Source of the DNA: a virus
Reading direction: 5' to 3' (one strand)
IMG/VR virus record: IMGVR_UViG_3300009703_000131
Location: 1 to 21,430 of that record
DNA length: 21,430 nucleotides
In this document: positions 2,293-11,452 of the stretch, piece after piece
Layout of the letters: every line of letters starts with the position of its first letter
Position numbering within the stretch: the first letter of the stretch is position 1
Program-made: the position numbers and the translations under genes
Notes under the pieces: generated by a model
Database searches by the model: none
Seen by the model: only the letters and a program-made list of their open reading frames with translations
What the model was told of the DNA's origin: nothing

Positions 2293-2621
2293 TGCATTAC
2301 ATTATTGGCACAGAAATTTTGATCCCAGAGCAACGTGCAATGGGAAACTCAGGTATTCAACCGGTAAACTCAACTCAAGTACAAAAAAGGAATAAAGGTA
2401 TTGGCCCATTCCAACCAGGCGTTCATTATCGGCTGTATAATATTCGTGTAAACCGTGATACAAACAAATTACAGTATACATTCGAGTGTAGCCATGGTGA
2501 GCCGTTGATCGTACCATTCGAAAGTGTTGAAGAGGCTGAGAAATATATTTCAGCAGCACGAGGTGAATCGTTACCTAGGAAAGATCAGGTATCTATTAAT
2601 AACGATACACGTATGATTTAA
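2292..2621 (+). CDS. Phage protein of unknown function
   Basis: A 109-residue protein starting MHYIIGTEILIPEQ. Residues 35-85 have a beta-rich pattern (HYRLYNIRVNRDTNKLQYTF, then a CSHGEPLIVPF segment) followed by a helix, which suggests a small alpha/beta domain. One Cys-x-His pair is present but no full metal site. The start overlaps the previous stop (TAATG), and the stop overlaps by 4 nt the stop of the convergent neck gene on the other strand. There is therefore no room for a terminator between the convergent units. The function is unknown. Confidence 0.65.
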   Translation: MHYIIGTEILIPEQRAMGNSGIQPVNSTQVQKRNKGIGPFQPGVHYRLYNIRVNRDTNKLQYTFECSHGEPLIVPFESVEEAEKYISAARGESLPRKDQVSINNDTRMI

Positions 2622-3340
2622 TAATAGTCGCCGTATACGTCGTCGCCATCATTAACATCTGTATAATCGAATGTTTTCTTAGCTTCTGTGTCGATATCAT
2701 CAACAATCTTTTTAGTTTCTGTTTGAGGATTAGTGTATCCTGAAAGCCTTCCAGAGAAGCTGTTGTCATATACTTGATCAGAAACTTTTTCAGCAGTTAA
2801 TCCTGGCTCGAATGTGTAGTCTAAACGTTTAGCTTTAACTTGCCAAACGTAATGACCGGCTAATGGGTTAATTGCATCAACTTGTTGATCTAAACGTTCA
2901 GTAATTTCAAATGACTTACCGCCTCTGTCTCCAGGCCTGTCGTCGCCGTATTCAGTTAGTGTAAATATGTCGCCTGACTTAGGTTCTGTAACTTGTTCTC
3001 CTGCAACTGATAAAGAACTCATAGTTGTCGAGAATGTAGATATGGATAACCACCCAGTTATATCATCATCCCCTTGTAATCCAAACTTAGACAGTAAAAT
3101 TGAACCTTCATTCAATGTAAGTAGCATAACCGTTTTAATAGCGTTGTGATAACTACCAGTTGGGTGCTCACCGTATACCATATCATGACCTGAAGTAGAG
3201 TAATTATATACAAAGTATTCAACTTCTTGACCGTATAGGTTTATCTGCTCTTTATAATAACCGTCAAAGTTAGACCGTTCATTAGAGTTATTGCCTTTAT
3301 CGGTAAACCTAAACGTTTCATTTGTATAGTACGGTTTCAT
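2618..3340 (-). CDS. gp14: Neck protein, T4 gp14-like head-tail connector component
   Basis: A 240-residue protein. T4 gp14-type neck proteins help to seal the portal vertex and join head to tail. Features recalling that family are, in order: LYGQEVEYF (35-43), where gp14 proteins have an IYGxDVxY motif; a YGEHPTGSY segment near 57-65, like their GEDP-type motif; LLSKFGLQ near 83-90, like their LFSKFGLE; a PKSGDIFTL segment near 119-127 and a following FEIT strand; and a YVWQVKAKRLDYTFEPGL strand pair near 164-181. The C-terminus is acidic and ends in tyrosines. The length is near the usual size of gp14 (about 250). The start overlaps the upstream nucleotidyltransferase stop (TAATG), so the two genes are co-expressed. 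The assignment rests on remembered family patterns, not on a search. Confidence 0.6.
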   Translation of the reverse strand: MKPYYTNETFRFTDKGNNSNERSNFDGYYKEQINLYGQEVEYFVYNYSTSGHDMVYGEHPTGSYHNAIKTVMLLTLNEGSILLSKFGLQGDDDITGWLSISTFSTTMSSLSVAGEQVTEPKSGDIFTLTEYGDDRPGDRGGKSFEITERLDQQVDAINPLAGHYVWQVKAKRLDYTFEPGLTAEKVSDQVYDNSFSGRLSGYTNPQTETKKIVDDIDTEAKKTFDYTDVNDGDDVYGDYY

Positions 3341-4479
3341 TATTTTTCTAGGCAGTATGCTTTATTTTGAGGGTCAAAGTATAACATAATACCACTTGTA
3401 CCGAGAAATTTAGGGTTATGTTTTAACAGACCAGTGTTAATTTCATTTTTGTCCATACTATATTTTGGTATAATATAGTTTAGATCAGCTTGGGACAAAA
3501 TAACCTTTCCAGCTGGTTTTTCGCGCAATGTTTCTATCTTGTGATTAAGGGACGCGTCAACTTTATGCATGTCAGGTACAAAATTTTGATGTAATCGACC
3601 GCCGCCTGTGCCCCATTTTTGCTGTCTTTTACCTCTCTCTTGCTTCTCACCAGCGCCCATAAATTTTTGTACACTTTTAGGTAACGCATACACATCCTTA
3701 AATGGTTTGAGATCTTCTTCTACCGGTTCATCATTAACATTTTCAGAATATATCTTATCATACGCTTGAGTTATAGAGTTAATTAGCATTCCCATTGCAC
3801 CGGTATTTCTAAGCTCTTTGAACGCTAAGTTCTCTACCGAAAATTCACCTTCATTTTCAAGACCGCTTTGCCTCATTCGTTTTATTTTCTTTTTTAACAA
3901 ATTACCTTTATTGTAGTACTGTTCAGCTTCTTCAGGCGTAATGTCTCCAGAGATTCTTTCATGTAATTTTTTAATTGTACTAATTATAGTTTTAGATTTC
4001 TTTATAACATCACGCTCGTCTATTTCCGGTGGCGACCAAGTCGGTTGTTTTATCCATTTATCATTTAACACTGAATATAACCCCGACGCTATATGCGGTT
4101 CATCTGTATCTTGAAAATACACCTCAACTTCATGACCCTTTATGACTATATTGTGCCGTAAATTCCACATAAACCGCTTACCGTCTAAAGCTTGCTTTAC
4201 TAGATCTTCATCATCATTGAGCTTATTAAATTTAAGAAGTATATGCAGATCGATATCCGAATATTTGGTGTAGTTATAGTTGGCTAACGACCCTGTAAGT
4301 TGAATATCATCAATAACACTAGATGTAACATCAGTTTCAGCAATAAAATCGTTTACTATTTTTAATAGTTTTGATCTTATGCCGGAATTAAACGATGATT
4401 CGTTATCCCATAGACCGGGATGTAGATCCTTCTGGTAATAGGTATTCTCAACGTATGGATATAACTGATCGAACAGCAT
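3340..4479 (-). CDS. Nucleotidyltransferase-fold protein
   Basis: A 379-residue protein. Residues 62-78 carry the polymerase-beta/minimal nucleotidyltransferase signature: G63-S64 followed by D75-x-D77 (TGSLANYNYTKYSDIDLH). A third acidic strand, GHEVEVYF near 115-122, supplies the expected last carboxylate. Such enzymes transfer NMP groups to nucleic acids, proteins or small molecules. Residues 160-215 are helical and basic. The C-terminal half (about 250-379) has no family I recognise and includes a Gly/Arg/Gln-rich basic stretch near 275-298. The active-site residues are intact, so activity is plausible; the target is unknown. The late promoter sits 9 nt upstream, and the gene is followed without a gap by the gp14-like neck gene, which implies late expression and perhaps a role in virion assembly. 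Confidence 0.75.
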   Translation of the reverse strand: MLFDQLYPYVENTYYQKDLHPGLWDNESSFNSGIRSKLLKIVNDFIAETDVTSSVIDDIQLTGSLANYNYTKYSDIDLHILLKFNKLNDDEDLVKQALDGKRFMWNLRHNIVIKGHEVEVYFQDTDEPHIASGLYSVLNDKWIKQPTWSPPEIDERDVIKKSKTIISTIKKLHERISGDITPEEAEQYYNKGNLLKKKIKRMRQSGLENEGEFSVENLAFKELRNTGAMGMLINSITQAYDKIYSENVNDEPVEEDLKPFKDVYALPKSVQKFMGAGEKQERGKRQQKWGTGGGRLHQNFVPDMHKVDASLNHKIETLREKPAGKVILSQADLNYIIPKYSMDKNEINTGLLKHNPKFLGTSGIMLYFDPQNKAYCLEK

Positions 4480-4496: not shown

Positions 4497-4527
4497 AAAA
4501 AAATCCCCTGCTACCACGCAGCAGGGG
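4497..4527 (-). terminator. Intrinsic terminator after the small membrane-protein gene
   Basis: The arms CCCCTGCT (4505-4512) and AGCAGGGG (4520-4527) form an 8-bp perfect stem with a 7-nt loop. On the minus strand the stem is followed by A and then seven Ts. It terminates transcription from the 4553-4741 gene just before the next promoter. Confidence 0.85.
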
Positions 4528-4552: not shown

Positions 4553-4741
4553 TTATTTGTCTTTAGCCTTACCAACATTTAATGCAAGCATGTCAACGAC
4601 ACCGTAAACTTTCTTTACAATGCCATCATCCTTAGGAGTCGGTGTGAGCGCAGCAATTGCTGATGCAACCGAAACAATACCTGTTAAAATAGCGACAAGG
4701 TCACTCTTGTGGGCGAGAACCCAATTTAATATATCTGCCAT
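4553..4741 (-). CDS. Small single-span membrane protein, possible holin
   Basis: A 62-residue protein starting MADILNWVLAHKSD. One hydrophobic segment (about 14-33, rich in Ala, Val and Ile) is followed by Pro-Thr-Pro-Lys-Asp and a basic amphipathic tail ending KAKDK. The size and topology would suit a single-span holin or another small phage membrane protein, but there is no diagnostic motif and no endolysin is visible in the window. It has its own late promoter 8 nt upstream and its own strong terminator 26 bp downstream, so it is an independent single-gene unit, suggesting that its dose or timing is set separately. Confidence 0.6.
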   Translation of the reverse strand: MADILNWVLAHKSDLVAILTGIVSVASAIAALTPTPKDDGIVKKVYGVVDMLALNVGKAKDK

Positions 4742-4749
4742 AGCATAAT

Positions 4750-4755
4750 TATTTA
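4750..4755 (-). promoter_or_regulatory. T4-late-like promoter for the small membrane-protein gene
   Basis: Minus strand GACTAAATAATTATGCT then ATG, spacing 8 nt. The first three bases of the core are the TAA stop codon of the lysine-dehydrogenase-like gene (4753-4755). Confidence 0.65.
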
Positions 4756-5838
4756 GTCTTTTAAGAGACTATTTAATATATTATTGAAGTCTGTATATGG
4801 CACATCAGAATACCCAAGAGCCATTGGTAATTTAATGTCACCGCCCCTGTTTTGCTTAATTCTCTTATCGAATACCTTCGTTCCCATAAGAGATCCTACT
4901 GTACTTATGGAAAACGCTGTAGCTTTTTGCATCGCAGAAAATTTATCACAGCTACGTACGATTTTTTCGTAAGTTCTAGTAGTATCCCCCGCAGTAACGT
5001 CTGATCTTAATATAACTAGGTCAGAATCGTTCTTGTCCCCGGAGCAACCGGTTTCGAAAACCTTTTTCATAGTGTCAGAATCTAATTTACAATCGTTATG
5101 TAGAAATTTAACAATGTCAATGTGACCTGGATATCTAAATGTCTTATAAGAACAGTTTTTAACGCCACGATTCTTCATACTCATTAATGTATGCGACACT
5201 CCACCTGATGTATAAAAGGCTTCCAGTTCACCTAACCCTGTATTTACATTTACAAGGCCTGACATACCCTTAACAGTAACTAATTTACCACCTCTTAGTA
5301 CCAAACAATCATCAACATATTCATTGATCAATCCATCTATTGACCATGTTACCATATAATTCATTACATTACGTTTTACTACAGGTAACCCACCGACGTA
5401 CATGTTAATGTTATCTATATTAGATAGCCCACACGCTAAATGTTCCGTAACAATGTTAATCCATCCAGGAGCAAGGCCTAGATCTGTAAATACCGGTGCT
5501 GTTGCCTTCTCTTTTGCAAATTGATTAATTTCTTCAGATACATCAACTCGCCCACCAAGGTCGCAGTACCGTATATTGTTTGTTATACAATATTTGGCAA
5601 CAGGTAGCAATTGATGATAAGGTAAACTGCATACAACGATATCTGGGTCTGTGTCTCGAAGCAATTTCTTAAACGACTTGTCGGATTTCAAATGTACAAA
5701 CGTATAGTCTTTAACAAGACCCTTAAGTTTGTATTCTGCAGGAACTACATCGGCACATATAAGTTTATATCCAAGTTTATTCATTGCATATGCAATGCAT
5801 TGACCCATCCTACCTAATCCAAATACGACAGCTTTCAT
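4753..5838 (-). CDS. Lysine 6-dehydrogenase-like enzyme (saccharopine dehydrogenase family)
   Basis: A 361-residue NAD(P)-dependent oxidoreductase. A Rossmann GxGxxG (G7-L-G9-R-M-G12) is followed by D30 at the end of strand 2, which favours NAD. Family landmarks follow: CDLGG (92-96), DLGLAPGWIN (119-128), YVGGLPV (147-153), LEAFYTSGG (205-213) and YKTFRYPGH (231-239). They fit lysine 6-dehydrogenase, which oxidises the epsilon-amino group of lysine to allysine (2-aminoadipate semialdehyde, cyclising to piperideine-6-carboxylate), better than the longer saccharopine reductases. Relatives such as carboxynorspermidine dehydrogenase remain possible. I prefer ATG at 5838 over a TTG six bases upstream because it lies 10 nt from a late-promoter core and starts directly at the MKAVVFG strand. 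An aldehyde dehydrogenase that could take the product lies just upstream. Confidence 0.75.
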   Translation of the reverse strand: MKAVVFGLGRMGQCIAYAMNKLGYKLICADVVPAEYKLKGLVKDYTFVHLKSDKSFKKLLRDTDPDIVVCSLPYHQLLPVAKYCITNNIRYCDLGGRVDVSEEINQFAKEKATAPVFTDLGLAPGWINIVTEHLACGLSNIDNINMYVGGLPVVKRNVMNYMVTWSIDGLINEYVDDCLVLRGGKLVTVKGMSGLVNVNTGLGELEAFYTSGGVSHTLMSMKNRGVKNCSYKTFRYPGHIDIVKFLHNDCKLDSDTMKKVFETGCSGDKNDSDLVILRSDVTAGDTTRTYEKIVRSCDKFSAMQKATAFSISTVGSLMGTKVFDKRIKQNRGGDIKLPMALGYSDVPYTDFNNILNSLLKD

Positions 5839-5847
5839 TATCAATTT

Positions 5848-7368
5848 TTATTTAGACATACCTTGAGGAAATGCTATATCTTCTCCATGGTTAACAGTCC
5901 ATGACATTGTATGAGTTACAGCTTGCCAGGTTTTAGCTGCAGACGGAAAGCCATTACCGCTCTTCTTTACTCCTCCAAACGATAAGTGGCTTTCCGCTGC
6001 AATGGATCCTCCATTCCAGTAACACATACCAGTATCGCAGTTATCTCTACAGTAACGTGCAATGCGGTAATTGTTAGTTAGAATGCCAACTGCCAATCCA
6101 TACTCTGTATCATTATAAATTCTTACCCCATCCTCTACAGTATCAAACGGTATTAATGCAACGTGAGGACCAAACACTTCATTTCTAAGATAAGGAGCAT
6201 CACACCCGCGCCATTCAACCTTATATACCGTTGGTGTAACATAATAAGTACCATTTTCGCCAGTATATTCCGGTGATAATAATACTTCAGCTTGAGTGTC
6301 TCTTAATACATGGTCATTATAACTTCGAACTTTTGCAAATCCTTGCTCATTAATAATAGGGCCGTAGTACATATCTTCATTTACTGACCCATCTTTATTA
6401 AACGGATTACCTGTCTTTATTTCTTTAGCTTTTGCAGCGAACTTCTCACAAAACTCATCATATACACTTCGCTGTACAATCATTCTACCAGATGATACAC
6501 AACGCTGACCAGATAACTTAAATGCACTAGCGATAGCTGCATCTACTGCCATATCGATATCAGCATCATCAAAAACAATACAGGCAGATTTACTACCCAT
6601 TTCACAACTAGTTGTTTTATGCCAGCTTTCAGCAGCTACTTTACGAATTAACTGACCTACTTCAGCACTACCGGTAAAGCAAATATGATCCACACCGGCT
6701 CTACAAAGCCAGTCACCTGTTTCACCTTTACCGTGAACAACATTCATAACACCAGCTGGTAAGCCTGCATCATGATAAATCTGCATTGCCAGATGTGTAG
6801 ATAATGGAGCATCTTCCGAAGGTTTAACGACAACTGTATTGCCTTCAACTAACGCCGGTGCTGCGTTCCAAAACATTCCAATAGCTAGCGGGAAATTAAA
6901 CGGAGTAACAATTGCAATAACACCTTTTGGTTTGCGAACCATATATGAATCTTTTTCTGGTAGTTCAGATGATACAATATCACCTGTTGGTGTCCTTCCC
7001 GAACCAAAAGCAAATTGAGCCATGTGTAAAGCTTCGTTTACTTCAGCAATAGATTCGTTATAGTTCTTGCCTGTTTCTTTAGAAATAGCAGTTGCGAGAG
7101 AAACCTTACGCTGTTCAACAAGTGTTGCAACATTATTAAGTATTTCTGCTCGTTCAAGCCTACTCTTTGATTTCCATTCTGTAAAAGCAACTTTTGCACA
7201 ATTAACTGCTACTAATACTTCGTCTTGTGTCGACAACGGAAATGTACCTAACACTTCCCCAGTAGCAGGGTTAATATTGTTGTATTCTTCAGTTGTGAAA
7301 TCCGCTCCCTCAACGCCAATACGGTGATGAATGAATTCTCCGTTTATGTAATTTCCGTAATCTGTCAT
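5848..7368 (-). CDS. NAD(P)-dependent aldehyde dehydrogenase
   Basis: A 506-residue full-length ALDH-superfamily enzyme that oxidises aldehydes to carboxylates. All key residues are present: oxyanion N158 in TPFNFP, cofactor-binding K182 in VVKPSE, GSAEVG at 233-238, general base E256, nucleophile C290 in SGQRCVSSGR, and E397 in NEVFGP. One oddity is CEMGSK at 255-260, where most family members have ELGGK; the catalytic Glu is kept. Next to a lysine 6-dehydrogenase-like gene, the likely substrate is 2-aminoadipate semialdehyde, giving 2-aminoadipate, but the motifs alone do not fix the substrate and succinate- or betaine-type aldehydes are possible. The ATG overlaps the stop of the upstream VOC gene (ATGA), and the next gene starts 9 nt after its stop, so the three are one operon. 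Confidence 0.93.
   Translation of the reverse strand: MTDYGNYINGEFIHHRIGVEGADFTTEEYNNINPATGEVLGTFPLSTQDEVLVAVNCAKVAFTEWKSKSRLERAEILNNVATLVEQRKVSLATAISKETGKNYNESIAEVNEALHMAQFAFGSGRTPTGDIVSSELPEKDSYMVRKPKGVIAIVTPFNFPLAIGMFWNAAPALVEGNTVVVKPSEDAPLSTHLAMQIYHDAGLPAGVMNVVHGKGETGDWLCRAGVDHICFTGSAEVGQLIRKVAAESWHKTTSCEMGSKSACIVFDDADIDMAVDAAIASAFKLSGQRCVSSGRMIVQRSVYDEFCEKFAAKAKEIKTGNPFNKDGSVNEDMYYGPIINEQGFAKVRSYNDHVLRDTQAEVLLSPEYTGENGTYYVTPTVYKVEWRGCDAPYLRNEVFGPHVALIPFDTVEDGVRIYNDTEYGLAVGILTNNYRIARYCRDNCDTGMCYWNGGSIAAESHLSFGGVKKSGNGFPSAAKTWQAVTHTMSWTVNHGEDIAFPQGMSK
5849..5854 (-). promoter_or_regulatory. T4-late-like promoter before the lysine-dehydrogenase-like gene
   Basis: Minus strand TCTAAATAAAAATTGATA then ATG at 5838; the core is 10 nt upstream. 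It lies inside the last codons of the ALDH gene, whose TAA stop overlaps it. It could give the third cassette gene extra late transcription. Confidence 0.5.
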
Positions 7369-7922
7369 GATAATTCTTTTGTACTGTTCATTAAATCTTT
7401 AACATTATCTTCACAAAAACCGTCACCTTCTCGCGAGATTAATTCGTAGATAACACCGGTTAGTTCAGAAGGTTTTGTGAATACTTGAATAAGGCCCGGG
7501 CATGTCATAGGCTCTTCAGAAAGGAACTCGGCATATCCTTTTTCTTTCCATTCGTTCATAGTTTGTGCCACATTATCACACTGATAAGCAATATGATGAA
7601 TGCCGCCCACCCCGCCGCGAGCAGCAACCCAATCACCAACAATAGATCCCACAGGACCATCACTAACAAAGATTTCACACGGTGCATGTAATGAAATATC
7701 TTCCTCTTCATAATCTTCTAAACATAAAGTTGTAAATTGAGACCATTCTTTAGTTTCTCTTGGTCGCTTTTCTGGTGGAACCAAAGCTAAGCAGTCTGCT
7801 TTTGAGCCGTCATCGAATTCTATTTGAAATTCCGTACCAATGGTATATCCTAAAGCCGCTTTTAAGAATTCAGCTGTCTTATATCTGTCTTTAACTCTAT
7901 ACGCGATATGATCCAGTCTCAT
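7365..7922 (-). CDS. VOC-superfamily (glyoxalase/dioxygenase fold) metalloenzyme
   Basis: A 185-residue protein with the vicinal-oxygen-chelate pattern. LDHIAYRV opens module one (metal ligand H5). GGIHHIAYQC at 106-115 opens module two (ligand H109 or H110), and GVIYELI at 156-162 supplies the terminal Glu (E160). VOC enzymes include methylmalonyl-CoA epimerases, glyoxalases and hydroxyphenylpyruvate-type dioxygenases. The length is above single epimerases (about 140) and below full dioxygenases (350 or more), so the reaction cannot be named. A Cys-rich C-terminus (GDGFCEDNVKDLM) follows. It is the first gene of the operon with ALDH and the lysine-dehydrogenase-like enzyme, so it may act on an intermediate or side product of that path. 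No clear TAAATA precedes its ATG; TAATATATCTTA directly before it may be a variant. Confidence 0.8.
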   Translation of the reverse strand: MRLDHIAYRVKDRYKTAEFLKAALGYTIGTEFQIEFDDGSKADCLALVPPEKRPRETKEWSQFTTLCLEDYEEEDISLHAPCEIFVSDGPVGSIVGDWVAARGGVGGIHHIAYQCDNVAQTMNEWKEKGYAEFLSEEPMTCPGLIQVFTKPSELTGVIYELISREGDGFCEDNVKDLMNSTKELS

Positions 7923-7967: not shown

Positions 7968-8132
7968 ATGAGCCAAGATACAGAATGTACATGTAATTGT
8001 GGACCTACTCCAGGTCCATGGGGTCCAGGTCAGGGATGCTGTGATTGTAAATGTCAGCATTGTAAGCACTGCAGCGAAGATTGCGCTTGTGAGTGTCACG
8101 ATGAAGACTCGAAAGATAGTAAATGTTTATAA
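7968..8132 (+). CDS. Metallothionein-like cysteine-rich mini-protein
   Basis: A 54-residue protein. It has 13 cysteines (7, 9, 11, 24, 25, 27, 29, 32, 35, 39, 41, 43, 53) and histidines at 31, 34 and 44. The order is a CTCNC cluster, a Gly/Pro/Trp hinge (GPTPGPWGPGQG, 12-23), the dense cluster CCDCKCQHCKHC (24-35), then CACECH (39-44) and an acidic/Lys tail ending KCL. Repeated Cys-x-Cys and Cys-x-x-Cys spacings are the hallmark of metallothioneins, which bind Zn, Cu or Cd as thiolate clusters. It is not obviously colinear with cyanobacterial SmtA. The late promoter 5 nt upstream and the neighbouring 8145 gene, with its own promoter overlapping this stop, support a real gene. Metal buffering or delivery late in infection is inference; a redox or structural role is also possible. 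Confidence 0.72.
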   Translation: MSQDTECTCNCGPTPGPWGPGQGCCDCKCQHCKHCSEDCACECHDEDSKDSKCL

Positions 8133-8144: not shown

Positions 8145-8423
8145 ATGCATAACGAACACGATTTAATCTGGGAGAGCTACCAGAAAGTTAATGAGAACAT
8201 ACCTTTGCAGTCGCAACAAGGGCTTGATCTTCACAAGCAATTAAAGCCATTAATATATGCTGTTAGAACATATCGTGATGCTGGTGTTCGTGACGACAAC
8301 GCAGTAAGTGTACATGTAAATGATTTGCTCAAACAAGGTGTGCCTCATGAGAACATTAAGCATGTACTTAGTCAAGCTTATTCAGAAGAAGATATAGCTG
8401 GTTTTCTTAATCTTCAGCGGTAG
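8145..8423 (+). CDS. Small helical phage protein of unknown function
   Basis: A 92-residue protein starting MHNEHDLIWESYQKVNE. It is soluble and mostly helical. The second half (about 40-90) alternates short helices with Gly/Pro turns (VNDLLKQGVPHENIKHVLSQAYSEEDIAGFL), like a small helical bundle. No enzyme motif is seen and I do not recognise a family. It has a strong late promoter of its own. The last 17 nt overlap the end of the convergent lipoprotein gene on the other strand. Confidence 0.7.
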   Translation: MHNEHDLIWESYQKVNENIPLQSQQGLDLHKQLKPLIYAVRTYRDAGVRDDNAVSVHVNDLLKQGVPHENIKHVLSQAYSEEDIAGFLNLQR

Positions 8424-8637
8424 CAGGTAATGCACCAGCATACCAACCTTCAGGTAGTTGCATCTTGTTCTTAGACAATACCCATTCACCATCTTTAAGA
8501 ACATACACCTTACCGGATACATTTGGTCCAATACGTACAATTTGAGCTTGAGTGTCTACGAAGACAACCTTAGTGGATCCACAACCCATAAAAAGAACTG
8601 CGGCGCTAGTCAGTAGAAGAATCTTTATTGCTTTCAT
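8407..8637 (-). CDS. Small lipoprotein, possible outer-membrane spanin or lysis lipoprotein
   Basis: A 76-residue protein with a typical export signal: basic MKAIK, a hydrophobic core (6-17) and an FMGC lipobox with C19 as the probable lipidated residue. The mature part is about 58 residues with a beta-like pattern (VRIGPNVSGKVYVLKDGEW, then LPEGWYAG). Its start lies inside the end of the upstream 8606-8791 gene in another frame (32-nt overlap), which resembles the Rz/Rz1 arrangement of phage spanins, where a small lipoprotein gene overlaps its partner. It lacks the proline-rich mature region of classic Rz1. The lipoprotein call is firm; the lysis role is inferred from context. Confidence 0.75.
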   Translation of the reverse strand: MKAIKILLLTSAAVLFMGCGSTKVVFVDTQAQIVRIGPNVSGKVYVLKDGEWVLSKNKMQLPEGWYAGALPATAED

Positions 8638-8791
8638 CTTTTGATTTCTTTTCTGCCTCTAGTATACGCTCACGCCATGCATTTTTCAACTTCTCAGGCG
8701 TTTTATCTGCGTTTGATGCTTTGGTGTCTTTTTTAATTTCACCAGAAAAGAACTCTAAAAGAGCAGCAAACAATTGTTTAAGCCATAACAT
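8606..8791 (-). CDS. Small amphipathic or membrane-associated protein, possible lysis partner
   Basis: A 61-residue protein starting MLWLKQLFAALLEFFSGE. A hydrophobic N-terminal helix (1-17) is followed by a highly charged Lys/Glu/Asp-rich tail. The helix is shorter than a standard membrane span and holds a Lys and a Glu, so a peripheral or amphipathic membrane helix is as likely as a true span. It heads a two-gene unit with the overlapping lipoprotein and has its own promoter directly after a terminator. An i-spanin or pinholin-like role is possible, but it is short for an i-spanin and the identity is unproven. Confidence 0.6.
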   Translation of the reverse strand: MLWLKQLFAALLEFFSGEIKKDTKASNADKTPEKLKNAWRERILEAEKKSKDESNKDSSTD

Positions 8792-8857: not shown

Positions 8858-9364
8858 TTAGTGGCTAAAAGCGTTACCGCCTTTAACGTTACCTACTTTG
8901 TTACCCTTACCAGTCATATGGGCAACCGCGTCTTTAGCAGCTTTGGGCTTGCCACCGTCTTCTTGACCACCAGCATCGCTGCTTGCTGACCCGCCGTCAG
9001 TGCTAAGTGCAGCTTTGTTATTTTTGCCGGTTAAGTGACCAACAGAGTCGGGGGCTGCCTGGAGCTCAACGTGGCTCTCTGGCATTTCGAGGTCGTCCTC
9101 TCCCTCGGTATCTTCAATGTCTTCAATGTCGCCCATGTCTTCGTCTTCGCCACCGCGAAGCTCGTCTAGGATACCTTGAAGCTCGCCGATGAGGGATTCG
9201 AGCCGCCCAGCGACATCGCCGCCTTCACCCATGTCTTCATCGCCGTTCAGGTCCATGTCGTCGCCGCCCATGTCCATGTCATTGCCGAGGTCGAGATCGA
9301 GGTCTCCACCCATTACATCTTCGAAAAGTTTGTCGAAACTGGTTTGATTAGATTTTTCCTTCAT
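8858..9364 (-). CDS. Alternative, internally initiated 168-residue form of the acidic protein
   Basis: ATG at 9364-9362 opens in frame within the longer 8858-9679 gene and is preceded, 8 nt away, by a textbook late-promoter element (minus strand AAATAAATAATTCTACA then ATG). The product, MKEKSNQTSFDKLFEDVMGG onward, holds the whole acidic domain, the amphipathic helix and both H-x-TGK-x-NK motifs. This may be the original gene boundary, with the upstream 105 codons being a separate gene whose stop was lost, or a true nested gene giving two isoforms. Confidence 0.5.
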   Translation of the reverse strand: MKEKSNQTSFDKLFEDVMGGDLDLDLGNDMDMGGDDMDLNGDEDMGEGGDVAGRLESLIGELQGILDELRGGEDEDMGDIEDIEDTEGEDDLEMPESHVELQAAPDSVGHLTGKNNKAALSTDGGSASSDAGGQEDGGKPKAAKDAVAHMTGKGNKVGNVKGGNAFSH

Positions 9365-9679
9365 TGTAGAATTATTTATTTTGCTGGCCTCATTTTTTAC
9401 AGCCTTTTTACTACTTTTTACCGGGTGCGATAAATTTTCTTCATTATACGCTGATTTACCTTTCTTATCTTTTTTGGTATCATTCTCAACGTCTTCGACT
9501 CCTTCAGCAGCTTCAGGTCCCGAATCTTTAATCATTTTATGGCCAGCATCTTTGCTGAACGCACCATTATCAGCTTTGGCGTCCACCGCAACGTTCTCGT
9601 TTAATTGTGACTGTTCCGGTTTTTCGCTAATGTTATCGGAGTATATGTCTCCTAAATCTTCAAAATACTTGCTAGACAT
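8858..9679 (-). CDS. Highly acidic protein, possible scaffold/core or virion protein, with internal start
   Basis: A 273-residue frame. Residues 1-105 are charged and Lys/Glu/Asn-rich (MSSKYFEDLGDIYSDN). From M106 a second module begins (MKEKSNQTSFDKLFEDVMGG). It contains a long Asp/Gly/Met-rich acidic run (124-155), an amphipathic helix (157-176, RLESLIGELQGILDELRG), another acidic run (177-200) and a tail with two copies of a motif, DSVGHLTGKNNK (211-222) and DAVAHMTGKGNK (250-261). No enzyme fold is apparent. The composition and position next to terminase would suit a prohead core or scaffold protein, which is inference. A canonical late promoter and ATG lie inside the frame at 9373/9364, so a 168-residue product is likely in addition to, or instead of, the long form. 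The base composition of the acidic part is much richer in GC than its surroundings. Confidence 0.65.
   Translation of the reverse strand: MSSKYFEDLGDIYSDNISEKPEQSQLNENVAVDAKADNGAFSKDAGHKMIKDSGPEAAEGVEDVENDTKKDKKGKSAYNEENLSHPVKSSKKAVKNEASKINNSTMKEKSNQTSFDKLFEDVMGGDLDLDLGNDMDMGGDDMDLNGDEDMGEGGDVAGRLESLIGELQGILDELRGGEDEDMGDIEDIEDTEGEDDLEMPESHVELQAAPDSVGHLTGKNNKAALSTDGGSASSDAGGQEDGGKPKAAKDAVAHMTGKGNKVGNVKGGNAFSH
9373..9378 (-). promoter_or_regulatory. Internal T4-late-like promoter within the acidic-protein gene
   Basis: Minus strand AAATAAATAATTCTACA then ATG at 9364; the TAAATAATT string matches the sheath and tube promoters and the spacing is 8 nt. It is read in frame as Lys-Ile-Asn-Asn, avoiding the stop codons its other frames contain. 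Confidence 0.6.
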
Positions 9680-9709: not shown

Positions 9710-11452
9710 ATGAACAATCAGTCAGATAAAAATTACTATCTAGGCAACAAAAAGTTACCCAAATCTACAGCTGAGTTCGATTGGACACCGAAAATGGTGA
9801 ACGAACTTAAGAAATGTAAGAGGAATATATTATTTTTTGCTGAGAATTTCTTTTATATTGTGAACCTAGACCGCGGTAAAGAGAAAATTAAACTATTCAA
9901 ATGCCAAAAACGCGTATTACGTAGTTTACGAGATCATAGATTCGTAGCACTACTAGCATCCCGTCAGATTGGTAAAACCACGTTAATGACAATATATTGT
10001 CTGTGGATTGCATGTTTTGAAGACGATCAACGTATCCTTATTGTAGCTAACAAAGAGCAGACAGCCAAGAACATATTCAAAAGAGTGCGGCTAGCTTATG
10101 AGATGTTACCAAACTATCTTAAACCCGGTGTTGTTGAATATGGTCAAACGTCACTAGTGCTATCAAACGGCTCTAGTATTGGTATATCCACTACATCGTC
10201 AGATGCAGGTCGTGGTGATTCCTGTAATGTGTTGGTATTGGATGAGCTTGCATTTATTGACAATCATTTAGTTGACCCCTTTTGGAAATCGGTATTCCCT
10301 ATTATCTCATCTTCAAAAAAATCTAAAATCTTTATCGCTAGTACCCCTAATGGCTCCGATAATTTGTTTCACAAATTATACACTAATGCTGATAAAGGTG
10401 TATCTAATTGGAAAGCAGAGCGCGTAGATTGGTGGGAAATACCCGGTCGCGATGAAGCATGGAAAGACGATACTATTAAAGCCCTTGGTTCAATGGAAGC
10501 ATTTAATCAAGAATTTGGAAATGTGTTTATACAAACAGGCGAGTCAGCTATTGACGACGCTCTCTTTGACCAATTAAAACAAGAATGTTCAGAACCTGAG
10601 TATGTGTTTGATGAAGGTTCCTATTTGTTGTGGGAAGAACCAAAACAGGACCACATATATACAGTGGGTGTTGATGTGGCGGAAGGTATTGGTGACAACG
10701 CGTCTGTAGCACAAATATTAGATATAACGGATTTGACTAATATAAAACAGGTAGCTGTTTATCATAATAATAAGATATCCCCATATAACTTTACTACTAA
10801 ATTAAAAGAAATTCTTCAACATTGGGGATCACCACCTGTAGCAATTGAAAGAAACAACTGTGGTGCACAGGTTGTCGATAATTTACATAATTTACACTCC
10901 TATTATAATATGGTTAACTTTGCACCTAATAGTACTACCAAAAGGAGTTATGATACTCGTTTAGGGGTCACTGCTCATACTAATACCAAATATAAAGGTG
11001 TAATAAACATGCGATATTGGATCAACCAATTAAATGTTATCCGATTCAAAGATGTACGTACATTAAACGAATTGAAATCATTCGTAAGGTATCCAAATGG
11101 TACTTGGTCTGCAAGAAAAGAAGCGCAGGTATTTGATGATAGGGTTATGAGTTTAATTTGGTCCTTAATTTCCCTTGAAGGTACAATTACTGAAAAATAC
11201 TATGATATTGTGAAGCGAGATGATAACGGTAAACCGCTAATCATTAAAAGCATGGATTACGGTATTAAAGAATTCGTTAATCCGCTTTCAATGTACAGTA
11301 ATGAAAAGGAAGTTGGATTAAATAATCCAAACCCAGTTGTGTTCGGTACTAATGAGGCAGTCGATGATGACATATCACAATTAGAACAGATGGGATGGGT
11401 TATGATGGGTGATAAACCTGATGCAGGAGACAATACATGGCTGACAACTTAA
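9710..11452 (+). CDS. terL: Terminase large subunit (T4 gp17-like)
   Basis: A 580-residue DNA-packaging motor that threads DNA through the portal using ATP and cuts concatemers. The N-terminal ATPase has Walker A SRQIGKTT (84-91), of the gp17 SRQxGKT type; Walker B LVLDE with D178 and catalytic E179; and the coupling motif STPNG (211-215). The C-terminal RNase-H-like nuclease has the acidic triad D322 (VGVDVAEG), E380 (AIERNN) and D476/D477 (FDDRVM). The length is near that of gp17 (610). No small terminase is visible nearby. The start ATG has no Shine-Dalgarno. The last 16 nt overlap the next gene, so translation is probably coupled. Confidence 0.96.
   Translation: MNNQSDKNYYLGNKKLPKSTAEFDWTPKMVNELKKCKRNILFFAENFFYIVNLDRGKEKIKLFKCQKRVLRSLRDHRFVALLASRQIGKTTLMTIYCLWIACFEDDQRILIVANKEQTAKNIFKRVRLAYEMLPNYLKPGVVEYGQTSLVLSNGSSIGISTTSSDAGRGDSCNVLVLDELAFIDNHLVDPFWKSVFPIISSSKKSKIFIASTPNGSDNLFHKLYTNADKGVSNWKAERVDWWEIPGRDEAWKDDTIKALGSMEAFNQEFGNVFIQTGESAIDDALFDQLKQECSEPEYVFDEGSYLLWEEPKQDHIYTVGVDVAEGIGDNASVAQILDITDLTNIKQVAVYHNNKISPYNFTTKLKEILQHWGSPPVAIERNNCGAQVVDNLHNLHSYYNMVNFAPNSTTKRSYDTRLGVTAHTNTKYKGVINMRYWINQLNVIRFKDVRTLNELKSFVRYPNGTWSARKEAQVFDDRVMSLIWSLISLEGTITEKYYDIVKRDDNGKPLIIKSMDYGIKEFVNPLSMYSNEKEVGLNNPNPVVFGTNEAVDDDISQLEQMGWVMMGDKPDAGDNTWLTT
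11426..11431 (+). promoter_or_regulatory. Shine-Dalgarno supporting the 11437 start
   Basis: AGGAGA lies just upstream of ATG 11437, inside the terminase gene. It is the clearest Shine-Dalgarno I see in the window and contrasts with the promoter-proximal genes, which have none. Confidence 0.6.

Follow-up and report, generated by a model that had tools for sequence, protein, structure and literature searches.

What do three coupled genes for metabolic enzymes do in the structural gene region of a phage genome? The question is raised by the 21,430-nucleotide stretch of viral DNA analyzed here (IMG/VR record IMGVR_UViG_3300009703_000131, positions 1 to 21,430; hereafter the window), a fragment of a T4-like phage with genes for the terminase large subunit (TerL), the tail tube, the tail sheath, and a head-closure-like protein. 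A reading of the window based on its letters alone (the sequence-only reading) had proposed that a cassette of genes for a VOC-superfamily enzyme (VOC), an aldehyde dehydrogenase (ALDH), and a lysine 6-dehydrogenase-like protein (DH) oxidizes lysine. We find that the cassette is a real conserved unit that this marine-type T4-like phage has in common with many unrelated phages, giant ones included. On balance, we favor the interpretation that it is a mobile auxiliary metabolic module of phages for side-chain oxidation of a basic amino acid, with L-lysine as the likeliest substrate.

The cassette lies on the minus strand at 4753-7922, and its three open reading frames (ORFs) are intact and coupled, as had been described:

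7365-7922, minus strand: 185-aa enzyme of the VOC superfamily, encoded by the first cassette gene (candidate ligand set H5, E83, H110, and E160; invariant R9)
5848-7368, minus strand: NAD(P)-dependent ALDH, 506 aa, of a phage-specific clade
4753-5838, minus strand: lysine-6-dehydrogenase/saccharopine-dehydrogenase-like DH, 361 aa from ATG

The VOC and ALDH genes overlap in the sequence ATGA, and ALDH and DH are separated by 9 nt, counted from the ATG start of DH at 5838, which is likelier to be used than the TTG at 5844, six bases upstream, where the listed ORF begins (363 aa). In comparisons of the window with two relatives (L001 and L022), differences in all three genes amounted to 0.45-0.62 at third codon positions and 0.08-0.28 at second positions, supporting that VOC, ALDH, and DH are under purifying selection, as for functional proteins. 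The key residues that the sequence-only reading had pointed out are conserved across relatives in all three alignments. In 33 phage DHs, the Rossmann motif GxGxxG (G9, G11, and G14) is invariant, and the Asp after strand 2 (D32) is nearly so; in 23 ALDHs, the catalytic Cys (C290), the Glu base (E256), the oxyanion Asn (N158), and the cofactor Lys (K182) are invariant; and in 29 VOCs, the His-His-Glu triad (H5, H110, and E160), an Arg four residues after the first His (R9), and E83 are invariant.

Single-protein scans of IMG/VR with DH and ALDH returned nothing or five loci only, and alignments were required to detect relatives. With a VOC alignment, 95 relatives were detected, of which 80 were kept; a DH alignment retrieved 66 loci. 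ALDH was found on the same strand and always upstream of DH at 50 of the 66 DH loci, and VOC was also present at 37 of the 66, upstream of ALDH in 34 of those 37; because these loci include near-duplicates and two places on one contig, 50/66 and 37/66 are not independent counts. Order and strand were kept in dozens of diverged contigs, which together with the purifying selection argues that the three-gene arrangement is not due to chance. Far from failing to co-occur elsewhere, as the sequence-only reading had allowed for, the three genes were found together many times in IMG/VR. In large phage contigs, VOC and ALDH were scattered: of 20 records from large or huge phages in which VOC stands alone, 14 also contained ALDH, at a great distance from VOC (e.g., in LR756511, VOC lies at 195 kb and ALDH at 320 kb). 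This unlinked co-occurrence argues for a shared pathway. Among 50,697 GenBank phage records, only two, both of huge phages, contained VOC. LR756504 encodes VOC, ALDH, and DH, and LR756511 encodes VOC, ALDH, and an L-lysine 6-transaminase homolog, with no match to DH. Cellular DH relatives had no ALDH or VOC neighbors. One sister-clade copy (L255) is convergent with a saccharopine dehydrogenase gene among otherwise unrelated neighbors, and we give this observation little weight.

The location of the cassette between neck and terminase genes was borne out, and the relevant flanking features are:

2618-3340, minus strand: head-closure (Hc2)-like neck protein
4505-4527, minus strand: terminator-like hairpin 3' of the minus-strand block, with a 10-bp stem, 7 G-C, and a T run (a candidate from a consensus scan only)
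4553-4741, minus strand: small protein of PHROG 9685 that flanks the insertion on the left, also present in relatives without the cassette
8407-8791, minus strand: overlapping pair of small phage ORFs (76 and 61 aa) that flanks the insertion on the right
8858-9679, minus strand: acidic protein of 273 aa adjoining TerL, conserved flank
9710-11452, plus strand: T4-type TerL

For the insertion site, we compared the window with IMG/VR contigs retrieved by TerL and with L001 and L002, which were retrieved by VOC. The TerL-retrieved relatives have the same neck-to-terminase block as the window, and homologs of the 76- and 61-aa ORFs hold their position beside TerL and the gene at 8858-9679. L265/L022, L269/L019, L001, and L002 have the cassette in the same position as the window, with the neck genes on one side and TerL on the other. 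It is absent from this site in L271, L272, and L311 (TerL 71-81% identical), in which the empty site consists of ~700 bases with small phage ORFs between a 62-aa gene and the acidic TerL-adjoining gene, and it is also absent there in less closely related contigs in which Hc2 and TerL are both retained. Elsewhere, the cassette occurs in very different contexts, as in L144, where ribonucleotide reductase genes adjoin it. The empty site in relatives and the differing contexts elsewhere support that the cassette moves as a unit. The proposal of an auxiliary metabolic module thus gains support from a true phage context and a presence that varies among relatives. VOC of L022, L070, and L019 is only 50-58% identical to that of the window, compared with 80% for L001, 91% for TerL of L022/L070, and 79-83% for ALDH of L019/L022; given this divergence, lineages seem to have exchanged the VOC gene inside a fixed cassette. 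Two neighboring genes were also observed. At 3340-4479 (minus strand), beside the neck gene, is a gene for a 379-aa protein with a weak nucleotidyltransferase match, the homologs of which differ greatly in length among relatives. Divergent from the VOC gene is a 54-aa ORF, below the length limit of the default ORF list, with 13 cysteines and a metallothionein-like composition (7968-8132, plus strand) and with a 66% identical counterpart in the same place in L022/L265 and L070/L266.

Which substrate might the cassette act on? DH matched the Pfam family Sacchrp_dh_C above the cut-off (76.2 bits) and Sacchrp_dh_NADP just under its cut-off. In profile searches, the best match over the full length was 3ABI (E 1e-59), an L-lysine 6-dehydrogenase (PMC10413350) from Pyrococcus horikoshii (PH1688), followed by saccharopine dehydrogenases (E 1e-28 to 1e-19). 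An AF2 model of DH (pLDDT 92) also had 3ABI as its top match in Foldseek (E 2e-22) and in VIA (Z 37.2, rmsd 2.4, 330 aligned residues, 22% identity), ahead of carboxyspermidine dehydrogenase (Z 34.3, 12% identity), saccharopine dehydrogenases (Z ~31), and homospermidine synthase (Z 25). DH and 3ABI have the motifs GxGxxG, DxGxAPGxxNI, VGGLP, TWS..LI.EY, and LR..GH in common. Carboxyspermidine dehydrogenases have an active-site His-Glu-Glu tripeptide (PMC10413350); an HEE string is absent from 32 of the 33 phage DHs, including that of the window. Thus, by sequence profile and model, the closest solved relative of DH is L-lysine 6-dehydrogenase and not carboxyspermidine dehydrogenase, in line with the original label. 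Carboxyspermidine dehydrogenase and homospermidine dehydrogenase/synthase were rejected as identities for DH by sequence profile and motif, despite their similar folds, and the grouping with polyamine enzymes that had been raised against the proposal was not seen where tested.

The companion genes of sister cassettes point in the same direction. In L079-L087, L145, L148, L150, and L158, genes for an arginine dihydrolase homolog (NF052232, 219-249 bits; PDB match to Sll1336, E 1e-60) and an aminotransferase follow ALDH. The aminotransferases of sister cassettes and huge phages scored 468, 468, 503, 507, and 511 bits against the L-lysine 6-transaminase model TIGR03251, just missing the cut-off of 520.8; the next-best family scored ~200-226 bits and ornithine transaminase about 144-168 bits, and the best PDB match of the cassette aminotransferase was the lysine epsilon-aminotransferase of Mycobacterium tuberculosis (E 2e-102). 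The same aminotransferase (503-511 bits) is encoded by three huge phages with VOC and no detected DH (LR756511, G327, and G328), of which G327 also had no ALDH match; among the 50,697 phage records, LR756511 was its only close match. A homolog of L-lysine 6-aminotransferase therefore accompanies or replaces DH in some phages. As judged from sequence, the VOC/ALDH pair thus has two unrelated proteins as companions, the closest characterized relatives of which act in both cases on the epsilon-amino group of lysine. In other cassettes (e.g., L107, L108, and L139), a SpeD-like pyruvoyl decarboxylase (PF02675, AdoMet_dc; 41.6 and 39.6 bits with a cut-off of 25) is encoded between ALDH and DH, with the Glu-Ser cleavage site (KES) and the downstream Cys (YTC) conserved in 10 sequences.

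Further genes were seen in or next to sister cassettes. In L012 (10814-11530) and L047 (10296-11048), an N-terminal HAD-like domain is fused to the SpeD-like domain, and elsewhere the two are encoded by separate neighboring genes; the HAD-like family was assigned by eye from a DIDET motif and had no Pfam match. A MotA/TolQ/ExbB-type protein (PF01618) is encoded next to the cassette in L008 (6893-8004) and at equivalent positions in L009, L013, L014, and L015, followed by a membrane-anchored protein that by eye resembles ExbD/TolR. A ClpP-like protease gene lies between ALDH and DH in L010 (10136-10918) and ~10 other cassettes (PF00574 in L012). In L144 (7145-7990), L023, and L147, this position is held by a UDP-glucose dehydrogenase-like gene within a ribonucleotide reductase cluster. 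L141 (6742-7968) has a gene for an actin-like "Volactin" protein (PF25216) directly upstream of DH without nearby ALDH or VOC.

VOC was the step left unexplained. Its only Pfam matches were Glyoxalase_4 and Glyoxalase, with none to DUF1338, and it scored below all NCBIfam cut-offs, including that of methylmalonyl-CoA epimerase (TIGR03081, 41 bits versus 115). The whole chain of the VOC model (pLDDT 86) matched hydroxymandelate synthase (Z 18.6) and HPPD (Z 17.2) over their catalytic halves, followed by methylmalonyl-CoA epimerase (Z 14.8) and hydroxyglutarate synthase with 2-oxoadipate (Z 13.2); identity to methylmalonyl-CoA epimerase, glyoxalase I, HPPD, and hydroxymandelate synthase was ~20-25%. 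The C-terminal motif (GFC.DNVK.LM.ST in the alignment) resembles that of HPPD and is dioxygenase-like. In the sequence alignment with methylmalonyl-CoA epimerase, the second module of VOC matches, and H5, H110, and E160 align with the metal ligands of the epimerase; E83 fits the fourth ligand position with a one-residue loop shift and could be a fourth ligand of VOC. Such a four-ligand site would favor an isomerase over an oxygenase.

VOC resembles hydroxyglutarate synthase (HglS/FLO7, DUF1338) in its fold, its His-His-Glu metal residues, and the Arg four residues after the first His, but it has no DUF1338 match and the additional invariant E83, and its 185 aa are about half the size of these proteins (306 residues in the FLO7 chain that was solved; residue numbers in HglS exceed 400). 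The distal carboxylate of 2-oxoadipate is bound in hydroxyglutarate synthase by Arg74, located four residues after His70 (PMC7286885). H5 and R9 of VOC are spaced identically. The same arrangement is found in Escherichia coli glyoxalase I, so that the Arg of VOC indicates only that a carboxylate is probably bound. We consider the oxygenase and isomerase readings of VOC about equally likely.

In cells, VOC is sporadic: a pattern scan of 84,980 species genomes identified 12 loci, some of them on phage-like contigs. With a presence in 1 of 296 Bacteroidota genomes and no plasmid match, we rejected the notion that VOC is an ordinary lysine gene of bacteria. One bacterial contig (L029) contains, in a row, genes for VOC (60% identity), piperideine-6-carboxylate dehydrogenase (767 bits with a cut-off of 730), and saccharopine dehydrogenase, and appears to represent a lysine-catabolism operon that contains VOC; since this is a single contig, the link to lysine is suggestive. 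A metagenome-assembled genome labeled SAR202 contains a phage-like contig with ALDH-DH (L169, G010:C9) and another contig with VOC (L037), which is 100% identical to an IMG/VR contig and could be a hint to the host or a binning artifact.

Based on these findings, we infer a substrate, a reaction direction, a VOC step, and a benefit as follows. DH would remove the epsilon-amino group of lysine (Lys + NAD+ to allysine/piperideine-6-carboxylate + NH3 + NADH), with L-lysine 6-aminotransferase joining or replacing it in some phages; ALDH would oxidize allysine to 2-aminoadipate, yielding NAD(P)H; and VOC, as a metal enzyme, would act on a carboxylated compound formed along this route. Our best guess for the VOC substrate is 2-oxoadipate, formed by a host transaminase and handled as by hydroxyglutarate synthase, with a role as isomerase or epimerase about as likely. 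On the whole, the basic amino acids of the host would supply the infected cell with reducing power, nitrogen in free or transferable form, and a carbon skeleton. The proximity of DH to 3ABI, the lysine 6-aminotransferase homologs, and the L029 operon support the route from lysine via allysine to 2-aminoadipate.

Several observations weigh against this route. ALDH (Pfam Aldedh, 427.6 bits) scored 271.6 bits against the piperideine-6-carboxylate dehydrogenase model NF050084, far from the cut-off of 730, and matched many ALDH families equally well. The cassette of the window has no 2-aminoadipate transaminase, and the possible fourth ligand E83 is a poor fit to an oxygenase. Some cassettes hold both the lysine-aminotransferase-like gene and DH, which would be redundant if both acted on lysine, plus the arginine dihydrolase homolog. 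DH was detected in 4 of 21 huge phages with VOC and a class-III aminotransferase in 3 of 24 huge-phage records with VOC. In a maximum-likelihood tree, which was midpoint rooted, contained 3ABI as the one lysine dehydrogenase reference, and lacked a carboxyspermidine dehydrogenase outgroup, the 33 phage DHs formed one clade (100/100), the nearest sampled relatives of which were four uncharacterized cellular proteins, and 3ABI fell outside, together with DH of LR756504. DH is thus a member of the lysine/saccharopine dehydrogenase superfamily with a substrate that the tree does not fix, and with an identity to 3ABI of only ~22%, lysine activity of DH is a prediction. Accordingly, the originally suggested path is upheld by DH, the aminotransferase, and L029 and weakened by ALDH and the DH tree; lysine is the most likely substrate and not the sole candidate, with arginine/ornithine-type enzymes encoded in relatives. 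Nothing was found in support of the further suggestion of a modified amino acid for a virion or DNA component.

The strongest competitor has five-carbon substrates: arginine or ornithine would be converted via glutamate-5-semialdehyde to glutamate, with ornithine delta-dehydrogenase activity for DH and glutamate-semialdehyde dehydrogenase activity for ALDH. The SpeD-like and arginine dihydrolase additions keep this explanation alive; the dihydrolase homolog in several cassettes would supply ornithine, and among the phage SpeD homologs of this kind that have been tested, the substrates were AdoMet, ornithine, or arginine and in no case lysine (PMC9992855). ALDH, moreover, scores equally on glutamate-semialdehyde dehydrogenase and other models. 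We nevertheless regard it as unlikely, as the aminotransferases score 468-511 bits for lysine 6-transaminase versus about 144-168 bits for ornithine transaminase, DH is nearest to lysine dehydrogenase, and the sole bacterial operon is a lysine set. The SpeD-like genes directly between ALDH and DH (L107, L108, and L139) and the second rank of the carboxyspermidine dehydrogenase fold (Z 34.3) would also fit a polyamine module, in which DH acts on diamines or makes a carboxylated polyamine, the SpeD-like protein decarboxylates, and ALDH clears aminoaldehydes. This is improbable: the carboxyspermidine dehydrogenase profile match is weak (E 2e-5, N-terminal domain only, 12% identity), the His-Glu-Glu tripeptide is missing in 32/33 phage DHs, homospermidine synthase ranks lower (Z 25), and no SpeD gene lies near the cassette in the window and at most loci.

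An equally small chance is given to detoxification of reactive carbonyls, in which a glyoxalase-like VOC and a broad ALDH would scavenge aldehydes made during infection, with DH as an accessory. VOC has a candidate H-E-H-E ligand pattern and an MRLxHxxxR start like those of E. coli glyoxalase I, and VOC and ALDH co-occur even without DH; however, hydroxymandelate synthase/HPPD and methylmalonyl-CoA epimerase are better structural matches than glyoxalase I, and this explanation accounts neither for the tight coupling to DH nor for the aminotransferase of sister cassettes.

In the favored lysine reading, the cassette resembles bacterial lysine catabolism, in which L-lysine 6-transaminase or lysine dehydrogenase acts with piperideine-6-carboxylate dehydrogenase (epsilon-deamination followed by an ALDH step), and lysine 6-transaminase homologs do occur in sister cassettes and huge phages; it differs in that ALDH is outside the curated piperideine-6-carboxylate dehydrogenase family and a VOC partner is added. 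It also resembles virus-encoded polyamine enzymes as phage genes for basic-amino-acid metabolism, SpeD homologs included, but the set described in the part of that source available to us comprises decarboxylases, arginase, spermidine/homospermidine synthases, and acetylation enzymes and no VOC-ALDH-DH set (PMC9992855). Searches of the open-access literature yielded no previous description of such a cassette or of lysine auxiliary metabolic genes in phages, a result that does not prove novelty. The usual fields of auxiliary metabolic genes are photosynthesis and the metabolism of nucleotides, phosphate, or sulfur.

A bolder suggestion, which we consider possible and rather doubtful, is that VOC founds a new and mostly viral family of compact enzymes for the last part of lysine breakdown, with phages of several size classes encoding a degradation route that they use during infection; VOC may, for example, convert 2-oxoadipate to 2-hydroxyglutarate or catalyze a new isomerization of allysine, piperideine-6-carboxylate, or aminoadipate. 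The exchange of a lysine-dehydrogenase-like enzyme for a lysine aminotransferase homolog makes the substrate directly testable. If the lysine reading is correct, phages would mine host basic amino acids (lysine and perhaps arginine/ornithine) for nitrogen, reducing power, and carbon, and a VOC family rarely found in bacteria but common in phages, including those of 300-640 kb, would be given a function.

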